A stretch of 64,000 bases of DNA from Planctomycetota bacterium. GTDB lineage: Bacteria > Planctomycetota > Phycisphaerae > Phycisphaerales > SM1A02. The DNA lies in the NCBI GenBank assembly GCA_024230295.1, contig JAAERN010000009.1:124001-188000 (forward strand), read 5' to 3'. Under the pieces are notes generated by a model. It was not told where the DNA came from. It did no database searches and worked only from the letters and a program-made list of their open reading frames with translations. The number at the start of each line of letters is the position of its first letter. The first letter of the stretch is position 1. Positions 20,781 through 28,717 of this stretch are shown piece by piece. A program made the translations under genes and the position numbers.

Positions 20781-21545
20781 TCACCCCGCTGCGGCGACCA
20801 GTTCTCGCGTCACGGAGTGTGCCGGGGCATCGAGCACGGCGTCGGTGTCTCCAGACTCGACAATTTTGCCACCGTCCATGACTGCGATGCGATTGCAGAG
20901 GTAGCGGGCAACGGCCAGATCGTGCGTGATAAAGAGCATCGCCAGCCCGTGTTCGTCCCGGAGGCGATTGAGAAGGTTGAGAATCTTGGCTTGAATGGAA
21001 ACGTCCAGCGAGGATGTGGGCTCATCGCAGACCAGCAGGCTGGGGCGGCAGGCGAGGGCTCGCGCGATACAGATCCGTTGGCGTTGGCCCCCCGAGAACT
21101 GGTGTGGCCAGCGGTCGGCTGCATCGGGCGTGAGCCCAACAGTCTCCGTGAGTTCCCGAACGCGGTCATCGACCTCACGATCCGAGAGATGTTCGTGAAC
21201 ACGGATGGGTTCGGCAATGAGTTCGCCCACTCGCATTCTGCCGTTCAAGGCTCCAGCAGGGTCCTGGAACACCATCTGCATGTGCCGCCTGAACTTTCGA
21301 AGTGCCTGACCTCGAAGAGTCGCCAGATCGATTCCGTTGACCTTCACGACTCCGCTGGTCGGTAGGACCAGCCGGAGCGCCGCTCGGGCGAACGTCGTTT
21401 TGCCGCATCCGGAACTTCCGACAAGCCCAACGGCTTCTCCTGGCGCAACGTGCAATGTGATGCCGTGCAGGATCCGCCGCCGCCGGCCAGAGCGGGCCTC
21501 GGCGAGATCCACGACGAGGTCCTGAATATCAAGTGCTGAGGTCAC
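20781..21545 (-). CDS. ABC transporter ATP-binding protein, oligopeptide/nickel (DppF/OppF) type
   Basis: 254 residues. Walker A is GSSGCGKTT, the Q-loop lies in MVFQDPAGALNGRM, the signature is FSGGQRQRICIARAL, Walker B is LLVCDEPTSSLD and the H-loop is FITHDLAVA. The combination resembles the DppF/OppF subfamily. The usual C-terminal oligopeptide-binding extension is short, and there is no permease or binding protein beside it, so it is an orphan ATPase. ATG 21545 overlaps the stop of the HtrA-like gene (ATGA), placing it third in an operon with panB and that protease. Confidence 0.88.
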   Translation of the reverse strand: MTSALDIQDLVVDLAEARSGRRRRILHGITLHVAPGEAVGLVGSSGCGKTTFARAALRLVLPTSGVVKVNGIDLATLRGQALRKFRRHMQMVFQDPAGALNGRMRVGELIAEPIRVHEHLSDREVDDRVRELTETVGLTPDAADRWPHQFSGGQRQRICIARALACRPSLLVCDEPTSSLDVSIQAKILNLLNRLRDEHGLAMLFITHDLAVARYLCNRIAVMDGGKIVESGDTDAVLDAPAHSVTRELVAAAG

Positions 21546-22972
21546 CGTGTTCGTTGCCCGAGGCGGACACCAATTGATTGATGCGAGCCGGATGCCCCGT
21601 CCTTGCCTGATCGCCAGATTTCCAGATCAACATCAGAGTTTGGACTCAATGCTGAAATCGTAGAGTGCAATTGGTCCACCGAGTTGATGTCTTGCCCAGC
21701 AATGGACAGAATGACATCGCCCTGAAGGAGTCCAGCGGAGTGAGCCGCCGTGCCGGGTACGACCGAATCAATGACGACTCCTTGCGTGGGTCCGCCCATG
21801 GATGAGAGCAGCCGATGAAGCGGCTCCCGCATGGACAGCGTTTCTGGCGTAGGCATTCCCGCTGCCGCCGCGACGAGTCGCTCTACTGGGGCGTCAGGAT
21901 CACCATTAAAGATATGTGAGGTCTGCAGCGTCGTCTCTCCGCCACCGGCGAGAAAGCGCCGCAGGCGTTTCTCTGTGACGGTCTCTCCGTTATCGATGGT
22001 CCACACGATGTCCCCCGGGATACATCCCGCTGCCCGCAGTGGTGATTTTTCCTCCAACTCGGCGAGTAGTACGCCCTCCCGCATCGCGTGCCGGCCGAGG
22101 AATCTGGCGATGGGTGTACTTCGGTCGAGGGCGACGACGCCGAGAAAACCTCGTACCACGATCCCATCCTCGATCAGTTGCGGAACAATCGTCTCGATCA
22201 TGCCCAGCGGCACGGCTAGCGCCACTCCAGTAAACCGATCATCAACGCGCCTACTGCCAGCATCAGCGGCAATGGCTGTGCTCATTCCGATGACATGACC
22301 GAGGTGATTCGTCACTGGGCCGCCACTACTTCCCGGATTGATCGGCGCGTCGATCTGAATGAAGTTGCCGTATCCAAGTCCACCGGTACTTCTTCCGAGC
22401 CCCGAGACGACTCCACAGGTGACTGAGAATCTAAAATCGAGCGGAGACCCGAAGGCAAACACCATGTCTCCCTGGCTCGTGGCGTCTGGATCGCTTCGTG
22501 TAGCCGCAATCGTTCGATCTGGAGAGATCTTGAGTACGGCGATGTCGGTCATTTGATCGCCCGCGAGTAGGTGTGCGCGGCGGACTGTCCCATCATGGAG
22601 ATGCACATCAATATCGTTGAGCCCCCGCACGACATGCCAAGCGGTTACGACATGGCCGTCGTCATCCCACGCCCACCCGCTCCCGGTCGTATGAGAGAGA
22701 CCGTGGTGTCCCTGCTGCTTGCCGTCAATGTGCACGACCGAGGGCTGGACAAAGGTGGCAATGTCCCGTTGGGCCCGGCTCAGGCTGGCGAGTATGGCAG
22801 CATCGCCGTTCGGCGACTGCAGTCGCAGGCCGGCTTCGTGGACTCGCGACTGCGTGTGCTGAAAGTCAATCTCGCGCTGGCCCCACCTGACGACGACCAC
22901 TACGACCACAGCGCTGACCAACAGCAGGAGGGTCGGCAGAAACGTGCGAACAGGGCGGTGATGCTGAGTCAC
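21542..22972 (-). CDS. HtrA/Deg-like serine protease with PDZ domains
   Basis: 476 residues. A single N-terminal membrane anchor (FLPTLLLLVSAVVVVVVV) is followed by a trypsin-fold domain with the full triad: His113 (TAWHVVRG), Asp143 (DIAVLKI) and Ser216 (NPGSSGGPV). Two PDZ-like regions follow, around residues 270-340 and 390-460 (GLLQGDVILSIAGQDINS). It is a periplasmic-facing quality-control or regulatory protease. The end overlaps the ABC gene by 4 bases and the start overlaps panB by 4 bases, an unusual partner set whose logic is unclear. Confidence 0.88.
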   Translation of the reverse strand: MTQHHRPVRTFLPTLLLLVSAVVVVVVVRWGQREIDFQHTQSRVHEAGLRLQSPNGDAAILASLSRAQRDIATFVQPSVVHIDGKQQGHHGLSHTTGSGWAWDDDGHVVTAWHVVRGLNDIDVHLHDGTVRRAHLLAGDQMTDIAVLKISPDRTIAATRSDPDATSQGDMVFAFGSPLDFRFSVTCGVVSGLGRSTGGLGYGNFIQIDAPINPGSSGGPVTNHLGHVIGMSTAIAADAGSRRVDDRFTGVALAVPLGMIETIVPQLIEDGIVVRGFLGVVALDRSTPIARFLGRHAMREGVLLAELEEKSPLRAAGCIPGDIVWTIDNGETVTEKRLRRFLAGGGETTLQTSHIFNGDPDAPVERLVAAAAGMPTPETLSMREPLHRLLSSMGGPTQGVVIDSVVPGTAAHSAGLLQGDVILSIAGQDINSVDQLHSTISALSPNSDVDLEIWRSGKDGASGSHQSIGVRLGQRTR

Positions 22973-23802
22973 GACGTCGTGGCCGGCCCGTCAATCATCG
23001 TGTAGGGGTGCTTGCCAAGGTTGCCGCTGGCGACCTTGGACTTCCACTCGGTGGCTGCGGCATGCACTTCCGCAGCAAGATCGGTAACGGGCTTGGCGAA
23101 GGCGGGCTGCCAGTCGGTGAGTCCGAAGATGTCCTGCGTGACGACGATCTGGCCGTGGCACGCGGGACCCGCACCGCATCCGATGACGGGCACGCTGGTG
23201 CGTTCCACGATCTGCTGGGCGACTTCGGCGGGCGTTGCTTCGATTAGCAACATACAAGCGCCCGCGTCTTCGAGTCGGACTGCGTCTTCCACGACGCGGG
23301 CCGCTTCGGCGACGGTTCGTCCCGCAGCCCGGTAGCCCCCGTCGTGTTTGGCTCGCTGGGGTCGAGAGCCAACATGTGCGCAGACGGGAATGCCAGCGCG
23401 GTTCATCTGAGATACCAGACCGGTGAACGTACCGTCCACTTCGACCTTGACGGCATCGGCGGTGCCGTCGGTAAGAAATCGTCCGGCATTGCGAACACCC
23501 TCAGCCTCATCGGCTTGATAGGACATAAAGGGCATGTCGCCCATGACAAAGGTGTTCGGGGCGCCTCGTTTGACTGCTGCGGTCAGCGTGATCATAAAAT
23601 CAAGCGGCGCGTGAATCGTGCCGGGCAGGCCAAGCACCATCTCAGCGGCGGTGTCACCAACGAGAAGTAATGGAATGCCCGCTCGCTCCAGATGACGCGC
23701 CGTTGTGGCGTCGTATGCGGTTAGACATGCGAACCGCTCGCCCTCTGCAGTCATCCGCTGCAGCGTGCGAAGCGTGACGGGTTTCGGATCTTGGTTGGCC
23801 AT
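22969..23802 (-). CDS. panB: 3-methyl-2-oxobutanoate hydroxymethyltransferase
   Basis: 277 residues. Transfers a hydroxymethyl group to 2-oxoisovalerate to make ketopantoate, the first step of pantothenate and CoA synthesis. Motifs include LTAYDATTARHLERAG, LLVGDTAAEMVLG, MGDMPFMSY, VKVEVDG, HVGSRPQRA and VIGCGAGPACHGQ. The reaction uses the valine-derived 2-oxoacid that the BCKDH locus also uses. First gene of the panB / HtrA-like / ABC operon, with ATGA overlaps throughout. Confidence 0.95.
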   Translation of the reverse strand: MANQDPKPVTLRTLQRMTAEGERFACLTAYDATTARHLERAGIPLLLVGDTAAEMVLGLPGTIHAPLDFMITLTAAVKRGAPNTFVMGDMPFMSYQADEAEGVRNAGRFLTDGTADAVKVEVDGTFTGLVSQMNRAGIPVCAHVGSRPQRAKHDGGYRAAGRTVAEAARVVEDAVRLEDAGACMLLIEATPAEVAQQIVERTSVPVIGCGAGPACHGQIVVTQDIFGLTDWQPAFAKPVTDLAAEVHAAATEWKSKVASGNLGKHPYTMIDGPATTS

Positions 23803-23881: not shown

Positions 23882-26350
23882 TCAGAATGGGACCCCGGCT
23901 GTTCGCGGTGCGGCAGGATCAGGAAGACCCGCTGCCACGGCAAGTTGTTCCTCGGTGAGCAGACTTCGTACTTGCTCAAGGCGTTTGAGTGCCGATTCTC
24001 GTCGGGCGAACGCCTGCTGCTGGATGTTCTGCCGGACCCGCTGGGCGGCGAAGAAAGCCTCTTGTTGATTGGCGGGTGTGTTCTGTGGCGTCTCAATGGT
24101 GGCAATGGCCTCTTCGGTCGCAGTCCACCACGCATCATTGTGTTCGATTCGCATGGCGGCGATCGTGGCCCGTTGGTCATCCGTCAGAGAGTCGATTTTG
24201 AGCACTCGATCGTACATATCTATAAATGGATCCTGGCTTGCAACTTCGGGATGCGCTTCAAGCAACCACATTCTGTGGAAGTCGTCTGTATTGCTTAGCA
24301 CAGACTCAATCGTCTGGACGGTCTCTTGAGCGAGGGCCGAAAGTTCGGCTCGCTGCGTTGCGACGGCCGTTTGCATCTGATCAATTTCCATAGCAGCTGT
24401 AAGATCGATTGACATGCTGCCGCCGCTTTGTTCCTGCGACATCATGGCCCTCATGGCCTCATCCAGTTTGACTGTCTTGCTCTGAATGTCTTCCATGAGA
24501 GCGGTCGCTGGACCGTGCCATCGTGAGAGGGCCTCTCTGGCAGCGGCGTACTCCCGATCATTGAGCGATGCATTGCTAACGAGGTTCAACAAGTCAACGT
24601 TGGCTCGATTGTCCGGCACGCCGATGAGCCGCAGGGTCCGAGATATACCCCCAACGCCCACGAGCATTTCTCTGACGCGGGAGAGTCGCCAGGGCTCGAT
24701 TGCCTCTGAATTTCCGATCGTTGCAACACCCTCGAAGAATGCATCGTCGAGTTCACTCAACCCTTCCTGTGAAATAGGTGTCATCATCTCGATGGCGAAG
24801 GCCATTTGATCTGCCTCAGTCATGTCGGCGATACGATCGCTGAACTCATCCTTCTTTGCATTCTTCTTGGCGAGGCGCATCGCCTCCAGTTCGGCGCGTG
24901 CGGTGTCGTGGGTCTCAAAGAGTTCGTCGAGCGTCCGTCTATCAGCCTCGGTCAGGGCGAGGTCGCGGGCAAGCCCATCGATAAGCGACTGCCGTAAGGC
25001 GGGCAGCACGTTCAGATCATCGAACAGGCCTCCATACTCGCCGCCAGGCGACGTTTCGGTGGCTACGACGACAGTTTCGTCGGAATCGGATCCACCACCA
25101 GACGATATGACGACGGCCGTGCTTGTGGTAACAACCGACTGCTCCTCCTCTGTATCACCATCCTGCTGCAGCGCATCGGCCAATTCTTCCGGCACCAACG
25201 CGGAGATTGCATCCATCGCTTCGGCGCTGCGACTGTTCCATGCCTTCATGGCGGCAATGCTGTTCTCGGATCCCGGAATGTCGAAGGTCATATTGCCCTC
25301 TTCGTCGACCTCGGTGACCGCGTTCTGCTGTTCACGGATGTCCCGCCAGTTGGCTTCAAGAGCGTCAATGAGCAGGAGTGTCGCGTCGTCATACCACACG
25401 TCGAGAATGACTCCGATTTCTGCGTGAACGTCCTTCGGCAAATCCATGCGTCTGGTACGTCCTGCCATAGGCGTGACTTGGTCATTGAGCCCGGTATTAC
25501 CGCTGGACAGTCGAATGACTTTGATCCGTTGCGACGAAGGAATCAGAGGGGCCAACTCACGCAATCCTTTGACAACGTGGCGCTGCAGGGCGATCTTGGT
25601 GGGTTCGGTCAACTCTTGGGCGTTTCGCTGCGCATCACGAAAGAGGTTGATCAGTCGTGACATCTCGGCTGGGCCGGGTGGGGTGTTGCCAAACTCGGCC
25701 TGCGCGGCGTTTAGGACGGCGAGCGTCTTGGAGAATTCGATGAGCGCTTTGGATCGAGCTGTACTGAGCGTCTTGAGTTGACCGGTGTACCGATCCTCCC
25801 ACGGGGTCAGTATGGACTCGATTTCGGCCCGCTCGCTGTCGCTCAGGGACCGCCAGTCGATGGCGAATCGTGGCTCTGTCTTTGGGAGGGGCGATCCGCC
25901 AATGAGGTCCATCGGGCGGTGGCAAAGACGCTCGCGGGATCGATGCTCGCGGATCCGCTCGAGTGGGGCCTGCTGGGTGTCGCCCAAGACACTGGCAATC
26001 TGATCCATGAGCAATGATTCCTGCTCAGCGACCAGCCTGTGAATCTTCTCTGTTTTGGCGATCCCGCGGCGGGCCTCATCCGGGTCCGTCGCAGTGATGG
26101 AGCCCATTCCCTTCGTTTCATTCAGGAACGGGTCGATGTGTTCGGTCCGCAGCAATTTCATGCTCGCGAGGTACTGATTGTGAATTTGGGCAATGTCTTC
26201 CAACTGTGCAGGGGACGGGGCCGCCAACCCCAACCGCTCACGAAGGATCTTCCATCCCAGATCTCCCATAAATGGTCCGGACATCATCTGAGCTTGGGCT
26301 AGACCGGCGCTGGCAAGCATGAGACACGCGGCAATCAGTCGAGTCGGCAT
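23882..26350 (-). CDS. Large secreted protein with repeated LTxxQ-like helical units
   Basis: 822 residues from ATG 26350 (AAAGGA upstream); the longer frame to 26845 is antisense to the glutamine synthetase gene. The signal peptide is MPTRLIAACLMLASAGLAQAQ. At least six segments share a pattern of a short polar turn, then D/E-x-x-R/H-A-x-x-x-x-hydrophobic, then an aromatic/His and acidic stretch: around residues 45, 170, 305, 460, 600 and 730, for example SLTDDQRATIAAMRIEHND and ALTEADRRTLDELFETHD. The protein ends near LLTEEQLAVAAG. The LTxxQ motif is known from Spy/CpxP periplasmic chaperones, so this may be a multi-domain relative; that is an inference. No cysteine-rich or catalytic motif is visible. 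Confidence 0.75.
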   Translation of the reverse strand: MPTRLIAACLMLASAGLAQAQMMSGPFMGDLGWKILRERLGLAAPSPAQLEDIAQIHNQYLASMKLLRTEHIDPFLNETKGMGSITATDPDEARRGIAKTEKIHRLVAEQESLLMDQIASVLGDTQQAPLERIREHRSRERLCHRPMDLIGGSPLPKTEPRFAIDWRSLSDSERAEIESILTPWEDRYTGQLKTLSTARSKALIEFSKTLAVLNAAQAEFGNTPPGPAEMSRLINLFRDAQRNAQELTEPTKIALQRHVVKGLRELAPLIPSSQRIKVIRLSSGNTGLNDQVTPMAGRTRRMDLPKDVHAEIGVILDVWYDDATLLLIDALEANWRDIREQQNAVTEVDEEGNMTFDIPGSENSIAAMKAWNSRSAEAMDAISALVPEELADALQQDGDTEEEQSVVTTSTAVVISSGGGSDSDETVVVATETSPGGEYGGLFDDLNVLPALRQSLIDGLARDLALTEADRRTLDELFETHDTARAELEAMRLAKKNAKKDEFSDRIADMTEADQMAFAIEMMTPISQEGLSELDDAFFEGVATIGNSEAIEPWRLSRVREMLVGVGGISRTLRLIGVPDNRANVDLLNLVSNASLNDREYAAAREALSRWHGPATALMEDIQSKTVKLDEAMRAMMSQEQSGGSMSIDLTAAMEIDQMQTAVATQRAELSALAQETVQTIESVLSNTDDFHRMWLLEAHPEVASQDPFIDMYDRVLKIDSLTDDQRATIAAMRIEHNDAWWTATEEAIATIETPQNTPANQQEAFFAAQRVRQNIQQQAFARRESALKRLEQVRSLLTEEQLAVAAGLPDPAAPRTAGVPF

Positions 26351-26500
26351 GGGCAAGTGTCCTTTCGGGGCAGGAGTGCGTAAGCACAGCACATCATCTT
26401 GGCCGAAGCCAAGCCCAGTGTCCAGCAGCCCCACAAAACAGGCGGTTTCCGACCCAATCACCGGCTCAACGTGCGGGATGTGATTGGTATCCTTCCAGCC

Positions 26501-28717
26501 ATGAGCAGACTCGCCAATCGCCCGTTGTCGTTCATCGAAACTCTCTCGCAACACATGGAGCCCACCAGCATGCCCGACGCTCACGCGGATTCGTGGATTC
26601 GTGATGCCGCAAGCCAGTTCGGTGATCGATATGGCATTCTTACATTTGCCGGTGAAAATGTTCGCCGCCGCCTCTCGCCCTCCGCGCTTGAGCGGCTTGA
26701 ACGGACGACAACGCGGCGCGAGCCGCTCGATCCCCGTATCGCCGACGAGATTGCAACAGCCATGAAGGATTGGGCGATCGAAAACGGATGTACACACTAT
26801 TGCCACTGGTTCCAACCGTTGACCGGCTCGACAGCTGAGAAACACGATTCGTTCCTGAGTATCGACAGCAACGGTCAGCCCATCACCGAGTTCTCAGGCA
26901 ACCAACTTATCCAAGCTGAACCAGATGCCAGTTCATTCCCAAGTGGTGGTATTCGTGATACATGGGAAGCGCGTGGATACACAGCATGGGACCCGACGAG
27001 CCCCGCGTTCATTGTTCGAAATGGCGGCGAACGGACGCTATGCATTCCAACCTGCTTCGTGTCATGGACCGGCGAGTCACTCGATCAGAAGACACCACTG
27101 CTGCGAAGCGATGAAGCCATCAGCAAACAGGCCATGCGGGTGCTGCGTCTCTTTGGGAATTCGGACGGTGTAGATCATGTGACGACGACGCTCGGTATCG
27201 AGCAGGAGTATTTCCTCATCGACGAGGACCTCGCCGCCATGCGTGCGGACATCATTCTTTGCGGTCGCACCATCATGGGCGCCGATTCGCCGAAGGGTCA
27301 TCAACTCGATGACCACTACTTTGGCGCGATTCCCCGCGACGTACAGGCCTACATGGCGGATGTCGAAGCGCGACTCTTTGAGTTGGGTATTCCTGCCAAG
27401 ACGCGCCACAATGAAGTGGCGCCTCGGCAGTTCGAGTTGGCCCCGCTGTTTGAGCGATCAAATCTTGCCAGTGATCACCAGATGCTCACAATGAGCGTGT
27501 TGCAGAAAGTCGCGCGGCTTCATGGCTTGCGGTGTCTCATTCACGAGAAGCCATTTAAAGGAATCAACGGGACGGGTAAGCACAATAACTGGGCGATCAG
27601 CACAGATACTGGCCACAACCTGCTCAGTCCAGGCAAGGCGGGGCAAAGCAATCTGCAGTTCCTGACCTTTGTGTGCGCGGTGGTGCGGGCCTTGGATCTG
27701 CACGCCGACATCCTCCGCGCGTCGGTTGCAAATGCTGGGAACGACCATCGGCTCGGTGCGAATGAGGCGCCTCCGGCCATCCTGAGTATCTACACGGGCG
27801 AGGAACTCGGTCGTGTTCTGGAGAATCTTGCAACAGGCGAGACGTCCGACTTCCGCGCGGATTCGTCGATGGATCTCGGCACGGCCGCCGTTCCGAAACT
27901 TCAGCGGCATTCTGGTGATCGAAACCGCACGAGTCCGTTTGCCTTCATCGGGAACCGGTTTGAGTTCCGCGCGGTTGGTGGAACAGCCAGCGTCGCCTGG
28001 CCCAACGCCGTACTCAATACGATCATCACTGAATCGATTGACTGGATCGTGACCGAGATGGAGAAGCACATTGATGGAAACGGATCGGTCGAGGCCGCCG
28101 CGATCGATATTCTTGGTGGTGTCATGAGAGATCATCATCGTGTGATCTTCAACGGTGACAACTACAACACCGAGTGGCACGAAGAGGCCGCGCGCCGAGG
28201 ATTGCCGATACTGCGTGGCACGGCCGATGCCCTTCCAGCATTGCGAAACGACTCGGTTCGCGAGATGTTCAATACGTACGGGGTCATGAGTCCAACCGAA
28301 GTCGATGCTCGAGTGGATGTGCTGTTTGAAACCTACGTACACACAATGGGTATCGAAGCCCGGACGATGTTGCAGATGGCCGAGACCATGGTGCTTCCCG
28401 CCGCGACTCGCTATCAGACCGATCTTGCAACAGCCATTTCGACCACCGAGGCGGCGGGCGTGAATTGTCCTGCAAGCGGGGGCCGGTTGCACGATCTGGT
28501 TGAGCATGTGACCGAACTCGAGGCGGCGCTTACTGAGATCAGAACTACGCTTGAATACACCGGGGAATCATGTGATGCCCACGCTAGGGCAGTACAGGAT
28601 CGACTCGTTCCCGCTATGGACAATGCCCGAGCTCACTGCGACGCCATTGAAAGCACTGTGCCAGCAGACCTCTGGCCTATGCCGACATATACCGATCTGC
28701 TATTCGGCGGCGAATGA
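26501..28717 (+). CDS. glnN: Glutamine synthetase type III
   Basis: 738 residues from ATG 26501, the large GSIII size rather than the ~470 of GSI. Signatures: FQPLTGSTAEKHDSF, IEQEYFLID, the metal/glutamate motif ARPRQFELAP-type NEVAPRQFELAPLFE, HEKPFKGINGTGKHNNWAI, and NRFEFRAVGGTASVAWPNAV. Makes glutamine from glutamate and ammonia. The long frame upstream to 26399 is in the region shared with the divergent LTxxQ gene; ATG 26555 is also possible. About 150 bases separate the two divergent starts and should hold both promoters. Confidence 0.93.
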   Translation: MSRLANRPLSFIETLSQHMEPTSMPDAHADSWIRDAASQFGDRYGILTFAGENVRRRLSPSALERLERTTTRREPLDPRIADEIATAMKDWAIENGCTHYCHWFQPLTGSTAEKHDSFLSIDSNGQPITEFSGNQLIQAEPDASSFPSGGIRDTWEARGYTAWDPTSPAFIVRNGGERTLCIPTCFVSWTGESLDQKTPLLRSDEAISKQAMRVLRLFGNSDGVDHVTTTLGIEQEYFLIDEDLAAMRADIILCGRTIMGADSPKGHQLDDHYFGAIPRDVQAYMADVEARLFELGIPAKTRHNEVAPRQFELAPLFERSNLASDHQMLTMSVLQKVARLHGLRCLIHEKPFKGINGTGKHNNWAISTDTGHNLLSPGKAGQSNLQFLTFVCAVVRALDLHADILRASVANAGNDHRLGANEAPPAILSIYTGEELGRVLENLATGETSDFRADSSMDLGTAAVPKLQRHSGDRNRTSPFAFIGNRFEFRAVGGTASVAWPNAVLNTIITESIDWIVTEMEKHIDGNGSVEAAAIDILGGVMRDHHRVIFNGDNYNTEWHEEAARRGLPILRGTADALPALRNDSVREMFNTYGVMSPTEVDARVDVLFETYVHTMGIEARTMLQMAETMVLPAATRYQTDLATAISTTEAAGVNCPASGGRLHDLVEHVTELEAALTEIRTTLEYTGESCDAHARAVQDRLVPAMDNARAHCDAIESTVPADLWPMPTYTDLLFGGE

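Follow-up and report, generated by a model that had tools for sequence, protein, structure and literature searches.

Spy of Escherichia coli (Pfam LTXXQ, PF07813) is a model of ATP-independent chaperoning. PMC8144458 describes it as a small dimer whose client-holding cradle is formed by the dimer and is positively charged, and PMC4791398 gives it two LTxxQ motifs. The first motif starts the first long helix and the second follows the second helix. We analyzed a window of 64,000 nucleotides from a Planctomycetota bacterium (Phycisphaerales, SM1A02; assembly GCA_024230295.1, contig JAAERN010000009.1, positions 124,001 through 188,000), which encodes the 822-residue protein P0001. An earlier note on this DNA had placed the reading frame at 23882 through 26350, and the gene was confirmed there exactly, on the minus strand (Table 1). 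Spy is one domain, whereas P0001 almost certainly joins six units covalently, in two halves homologous to each other, A1, B1 and C1 followed by A2, B2 and C2. In unit C2 the two motifs have nearly the spacing that they have in Spy, and because Spy has two LTxxQ motifs, one unit would correspond to one Spy monomer.

Internal repeat structure

At least six literal segments of an extended LTxxQ-like motif had been reported for P0001 in the earlier note. Five patterns were counted in P0001 and in 1,000 residue shuffles: [SA]L[TSN]xx[QE]R occurs twice (positions 168 and 721; equaled by 1 shuffle), strict L[TS]xxQ twice (722 and 798; equaled by 122 shuffles), L[TSN]xx[QER]R twice (equaled by 15), [LP][TSN]xx[QE] seven times (equaled by 19) and L[TSN]xx[QEDRH] 12 times against 4.2 expected (equaled by 2). 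Literal motif counting in P0001 alone is too weak to prove six repeats, and to that extent the claim was overstated; the number of six units holds, and is drawn from the family profile.

Alignment of the N half of P0001 with its C half by the Smith-Waterman method is marginal when the protein is taken alone (score 59, reached by 15 of 500 shuffles). Among single family members, the half-to-half score is reached by none of 200 shuffles for 16 of 24, and by some for the remaining 8, P0001 included. The family alignment comprises 24 of 37 frames; fragments, short frames and two frames of 650 to 720 residues were dropped. Comparison of its N-half profile (residues 22 through 430) with its C-half profile (431 through 815) shows homology over 365 columns (P = 3e-39, score 298.6), and the maximum score of 20 column-shuffled controls was 18.5. 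Self-comparison, one of the checks proposed for P0001, has thus yielded internal repeats that are significant at the family level and marginal in P0001 alone; the repeat is established because of the family profile and its null shuffles, not because of the single sequence. Profile P values here and below are single-pair, uncorrected hhalign values, calibrated by shuffled, reversed and unrelated-family controls.

At the level of single units, the like pairs match well (A1-A2, P = 3.8e-22; B1-B2, 2.8e-12; C1-C2, 5.2e-15). Long matches between unlike units (86 to 107 columns, P from 9e-7 to 4e-10) join A1-B1, A1-C1, A1-C2 (3.8e-10), B1-C1, B1-C2 and C1-B2. The A1-B2, A2-B2 and A2-C2 matches extend over no more than 34 to 41 columns and carry little weight, B1-A2 and C1-A2 are weak (4e-4 to 8e-4), and the B2-C2 match was rejected as an artefact of overlapping cuts, with residues 700 through 715 in both. 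All six units are connected by profile matches, either directly or via a partner unit, and A2 is tied to the others mainly through A1. From these comparisons, P0001 is almost certainly organized as (A-B-C)x2, that is, as two homologous halves of three units each. The predicted structures are almost all helical, both for full-length P0001 (predicted local distance difference test [pLDDT] 73.6, predicted template modeling score [pTM] 0.51; 8-row alignment) and for the C half (pLDDT 86.5, pTM 0.81; 7-row alignment).

Relationship of the units to Spy and CpxP

The LTXXQ profile was built from an alignment of 21 planctomycete domains and E. coli Spy; searched against the Protein Data Bank (PDB), it finds Spy, CpxP, STV (E = 3e-11) and ZraP (1.6e-5). 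Three units match this profile strongly, each over 97 to 99 columns (A1, P = 7.3e-9; C2, 2.5e-8; C1, 9.3e-6). Across all six, scores range from 25.7 to 54.8, compared with at most 16.8 for OmpH/Skp, reversed and shuffled controls and at most 19.0 for a chemoreceptor (MCP) profile. OmpH/Skp, an unrelated periplasmic helical chaperone family, was rejected as a relative, its profile not resembling the units. Matches of the units to a Metal_resist profile are of similar strength to those with LTXXQ, but the two sets are not independent (5 of 13 Metal_resist rows are loci also in the LTXXQ alignment). The Pfam LTXXQ model matches 9 of the 24 family members at E ≤ 1, the best at 4.8e-5. PDB sequence searches with P0001 and with unit A1 gave no meaningful match, and an NCBIfam search gave nothing.

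Both canonical glutamines are present only in the outer units, A1 (22 and 23 of 24 members) and C2 (22 and 24 of 24). The first motif glutamine is mostly lost from the inner units, being kept in 2 (B1), 8 (C1), 3 (A2) and 3 (B2) of 24 members; for the inner units the count covers the first motif. The spacing of the two LTxxQ motifs is 73 residues in E. coli Spy and 76 in C2. Homology of the six units to the Spy/CpxP superfamily is supported by the profile matches. The proposal of a tandem Spy/CpxP protein is borne out in this respect, with controls at noise, while its newness has to be qualified: LTxxQ units already occur in pairs within one frame in other planctomycetes (loci L127 and L128), in twos instead of sixes and without A-B-C halves. 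Both units of L127 are profile-supported; the second unit of L128 is weak (independent E values of 0.93 and 0.036). The L128 frame runs on into a further long part. What would be new is the six-unit tandem LTxxQ architecture. A tandem LTxxQ protein is not described in the titles and abstract openings among the literature matches listed, a source that mostly leaves subscription journals outside its coverage.

Structure prediction, another check proposed for P0001, gave a model that is not one unrelated fold. In whole-chain comparisons with VIA, CnrX, a member of Metal_resist (PF13801), is the top match of the full model (Z 8.6 over 107 of 111 residues, root-mean-square deviation 2.6, on unit B2), with STV (5ihf) in fourth place (Z 8.1 over 99 of 105 residues, on unit A1). 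For the C half, unrelated chains hold ranks 1 through 3, five CnrX entries are among the top 15 rows (Z 7.9 to 8.3) and STV follows at rank 40 with Z 7.0. These matches of single-domain proteins to single units of a six-unit chain lie at the noise level for helical bundles; they agree with units of the Spy/CpxP type and are not proof of them.

The leading place of CnrX, a metal sensor by its PDB title, among the whole-chain matches of the full model would also suit a role in sensing or regulation, as for CnrX or CpxP, in which P0001 would bind a ligand or a misfolded protein and signal across the inner membrane with no holdase action. In the window's genome, a multi-unit relative (L219:7353-11163) is divergent from a gene for a sigma factor of the extracytoplasmic function (ECF) type. 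However, no regulator was found among the window neighbors scanned, and the 822 residues of P0001 include 2 Cys and 12 His; a sensor role for P0001 is, in our judgment, improbable. The sigma factor gene at L219 is followed by one gene, possibly for an anti-sigma factor by its position, and then by an exported LTXXQ-like/EF-hand gene (LTXXQ 23.0 bits, Metal_resist 21.3 bits, both below cut-off).

Three-unit relatives, duplication and type II secretion

Matches to P0001 at E ≤ 0.001 are found in 22 of 61 related genomes, a sample that includes the window's genome. With the family profile, 102 of 201 genomes of the order match at E 1e-6, as do 5 of 246 genomes of the phylum, all five from the same order; both samples count the window's genome, and three to four candidates were scored per genome. 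The window's own genome has seven matching places at E 1e-4. The near relatives are metagenome-assembled genomes labeled Phycisphaerales or Phycisphaerae, and some of their isolate names (ALOHA and Arabian, for example) point to sea water; the hosts are probably marine planctomycetes.

Genomes of a sister family, f2, encode half-size, three-unit proteins. A tree was built from 42 N halves, 42 C halves and 9 three-unit proteins, and every one of these three groups falls on one side of a branch (bootstrap/SH-aLRT supports of 98/90, 95/91 and 100/99, respectively). The six-unit rows are frames with two non-overlapping half matches of >280 residues; the three-unit rows are complete frames of <720 residues with one such match and come from four genomes of one genus. 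The root of the tree is not fixed. This topology is most simply explained if a three-unit protein was duplicated once in an ancestor. A further set of three-unit proteins linked to type II secretion (n = 17), which lies outside the tree, is homologous to both halves of the P0001 family (N half, P = 4.9e-21; C half, 1.2e-28; shuffles score ≤19.0 against the C half). Its units A, B and C are in the same order, with best unit matches A-A, B-B and C-C, and they match the LTXXQ profile in their own right (unit A, 9.6e-9; unit C, 1.9e-5; unit B, 5.3e-4). A two-step origin of the six-unit string is strongly supported by these comparisons: one LTxxQ domain would have given rise to a three-domain A-B-C protein, which would then have been duplicated and fused to give (A-B-C)x2.

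The secretion-linked genes have a consistent setting. In the window's genome (L218:7894-10961), a three-unit gene stands just before gspE, gspF and gspK, identified with Pfam; a gspJ-like gene is below cut-off, and others, including a gspD-like frame, were named by eye. This protein or a paralogue was found in 33 of 41 genomes. At all 20 loci returned (L222 through L241, 20 genomes of the same family), the gene that directly follows the three-unit gene, on the same strand, matches gspE, with a gap of at most ∼420 bp. Most such frames encode ∼400 to 510 residues, and a few are longer. In f2, arrays of three neighboring three-unit genes precede matches to gspE, F, I, J and K at five of five loci (L138 through L141 and L150), with Pfam support for GspF, GspG, GspJ and GspK; these loci were chosen for closely clustered matches, and gsp neighbors were no part of the choice. 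Both kinds of three-unit protein are homologous over the whole A-B-C half. A link of a Spy-type domain to type II secretion is not described in the titles and abstract openings among the literature matches listed.

Together with the homology between three-unit and six-unit proteins, this gene order raises the alternative that the family arose as a periplasmic type II secretion component or substrate adaptor and that the six-unit form serves the envelope in a related but client-specific way. Gene order is no proof of a physical role, however, and no gsp match was found near the 19 loci examined that carry six-unit or similar long genes; the neighbors in the window are panB, an HtrA-type protease gene and a type III glutamine synthetase gene instead. 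Three-unit relatives represent one half, before gspE, whereas the six-unit form is fused and located elsewhere. We consider a secretion factor an unlikely description of P0001, though a better one than a sensor.

Gene neighborhood and proposed function

Features of the P0001 gene and its surroundings are collected in Table 1. By eye, residues 1 through 20 fit the motif rule for signal peptides, and Q21, the residue that follows, is invariant in all 24 members of the family alignment; export of P0001 is strongly suggested, probably to the periplasm.

Table 1. Position of the P0001 gene, its predicted units and its neighbors in the window
Feature	Position	Strand	Basis or remark
Coding sequence of six-unit protein P0001 (822 residues)	23882..26350	-	ATG at 26350, stop at 23882
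Probable Sec signal peptide, residues 1-20	26291..26350	-	AQA end before Q21; by eye
Unit A1, residues 24-155	25886..26281	-	Best LTXXQ match; Q49 and Q126 retained; STV 5ihf structural match
Unit B1, residues 156-285	25496..25885	-	Degenerate LTxxQ unit; basic, pI 9.8
Unit C1, residues 286-400	25151..25495	-	Profile matches
Inter-half linker, residues 401-443	25022..25150	-	Ser/Thr/Val rich; low confidence, pLDDT <50 for 397-443
Unit A2, residues 444-585	24596..25021	-	Profile matches, C-half model
Unit B2, residues 586-705	24236..24595	-	Whole-chain structural match to CnrX
Unit C2, residues 706-812	23915..24235	-	Canonical LTDDQ (722) and LTEEQ (798), 76 apart
panB, next gene downstream	22969..23802	-	Pfam PF02548, E 4.3e-84
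HtrA-type protease (Trypsin_2 and PDZ)	21542..22972	-	Pfam; start overlaps panB end
ABC-transporter ATPase	20781..21545	-	Pfam scan; overlaps protease gene
Type III glutamine synthetase, divergent neighbor	26399..28717 (start approximate)	+	Pfam GSIII_N, E 2.6e-71

Downstream of P0001 on the same strand lie panB, the HtrA-type protease gene, the ABC ATPase gene, thyA and folA. A scan around the genes gave one promoter-like site (2.2 expected) and six terminator-like sites (4.3 expected) and leaves an operon undecided. Among relatives, an HtrA-type protease gene is found on the same strand within 4.5 kb downstream at 12 of 29 loci, with panB nearer in each; with the window added, the panB-HtrA order is present at 13 of 30. 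The count covers loci with six-unit or similar long genes (31 examined, 2 dropped for having <3 kb downstream; some genomes give more than one locus) and includes a C-terminal fragment (L034), a gapped locus (L035) and one with partial matches (L143). The divergent pairing with a type III glutamine synthetase, also reported in the earlier note, is confirmed by the GSIII_N match. We reject it as a functional hint, because it was seen only in near relatives of the same genus (L036, L038 and L151) and was not found in the 2.7 to 6.5 kb upstream examined at L040, L048, L056 and L144, all of which retain panB-HtrA. Two adjacent same-strand six-unit copies occur at L039 (second copy frame-split), L040, L046, L051, L056, L144, L147 and L152, and six-unit genes at L046, L051, L152, L043 and L153 neighbor ThiF/MoeB-like or glycerol kinase-like genes, named by eye from their N termini.

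We lean toward reading P0001 as a holdase of the Spy type for exported proteins, with its units covalently linked in tandem. Each exported unit would offer clients a Spy-like helical surface in an ATP-independent manner, and the covalent linkage of six units would provide avidity in place of Spy dimerization. Newly exported or damaged proteins would be kept soluble until they are folded, secreted or passed on, and clients may be handed over to the HtrA-type protease, whose gene lies two genes downstream. We infer both the holdase role and the hand-over from homology and gene order.

Several results weigh against this reading. Three units match the LTXXQ profile weakly (A2, P = 1.6e-4 over 43 columns; B2, 2.7e-4; B1, 8.8e-4), and Pfam LTXXQ scores 12.5 bits on P0001 (E = 0.26), under the curated cut-off of 24.3. 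Foldseek searches with the full and C-half models gave no match below E 0.001, VIA Z values near 8 are tied with unrelated helical chains, and the LTXXQ profile itself finds CnrX in the PDB weakly (E ∼0.01), below several designed helical proteins. HtrA was not found near 17 of the 29 loci, and where it is present a biosynthetic gene, panB, stands between it and the six-unit gene. Within the genus, P0001 has matches in six of eight further genomes and none in the remaining two, of which one is 96% complete. Finally, P0001 is acidic (pI 4.68), as are all 24 family members (pI 4.56 to 5.64, with rough signal cuts), although unit B1 alone has a pI of 9.77; Spy, by contrast, is basic, with a pI of 9.45, and binds clients on a positive surface. 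P0001 is therefore likely to differ from Spy in its client preference or mechanism, and its strongly acidic charge speaks against a mere copy of how Spy works.

The weak B1, A2 and B2 matches, the Pfam score and the structural Z values could also be explained if P0001 were a helical repeat protein whose likeness to LTxxQ domains is convergent and stems from composition and helix heptads. This is very improbable: no OmpH, chemoreceptor, reversed or shuffled control comes up to the lowest-scoring unit, A1, C1 and C2 match over nearly 100 columns, the separate three-unit alignment gives a like result, and the motif glutamines of A1 and C2 are kept at both positions in nearly all members.

P0001, a natural six-domain chain with degenerate inner and canonical outer units, offers a way to ask how avidity and covalent linkage affect holdase action. 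More broadly, and tentatively, multi-domain chaperones of the Spy type may have become a class of their own in Phycisphaerales, in which covalent multivalency replaces the dimeric Spy cradle. The three-unit form would be a fixed part of the type II secretion operon, dedicated to handling substrates in the periplasm, and one family would have tripled it into separate genes; in another family, the six units would be fused and coupled to an HtrA protease. The most interesting part is the secretion link of the three-unit relatives, whose association with gspE at every one of the 20 loci returned makes a connection of Spy-type domains with type II secretion testable.

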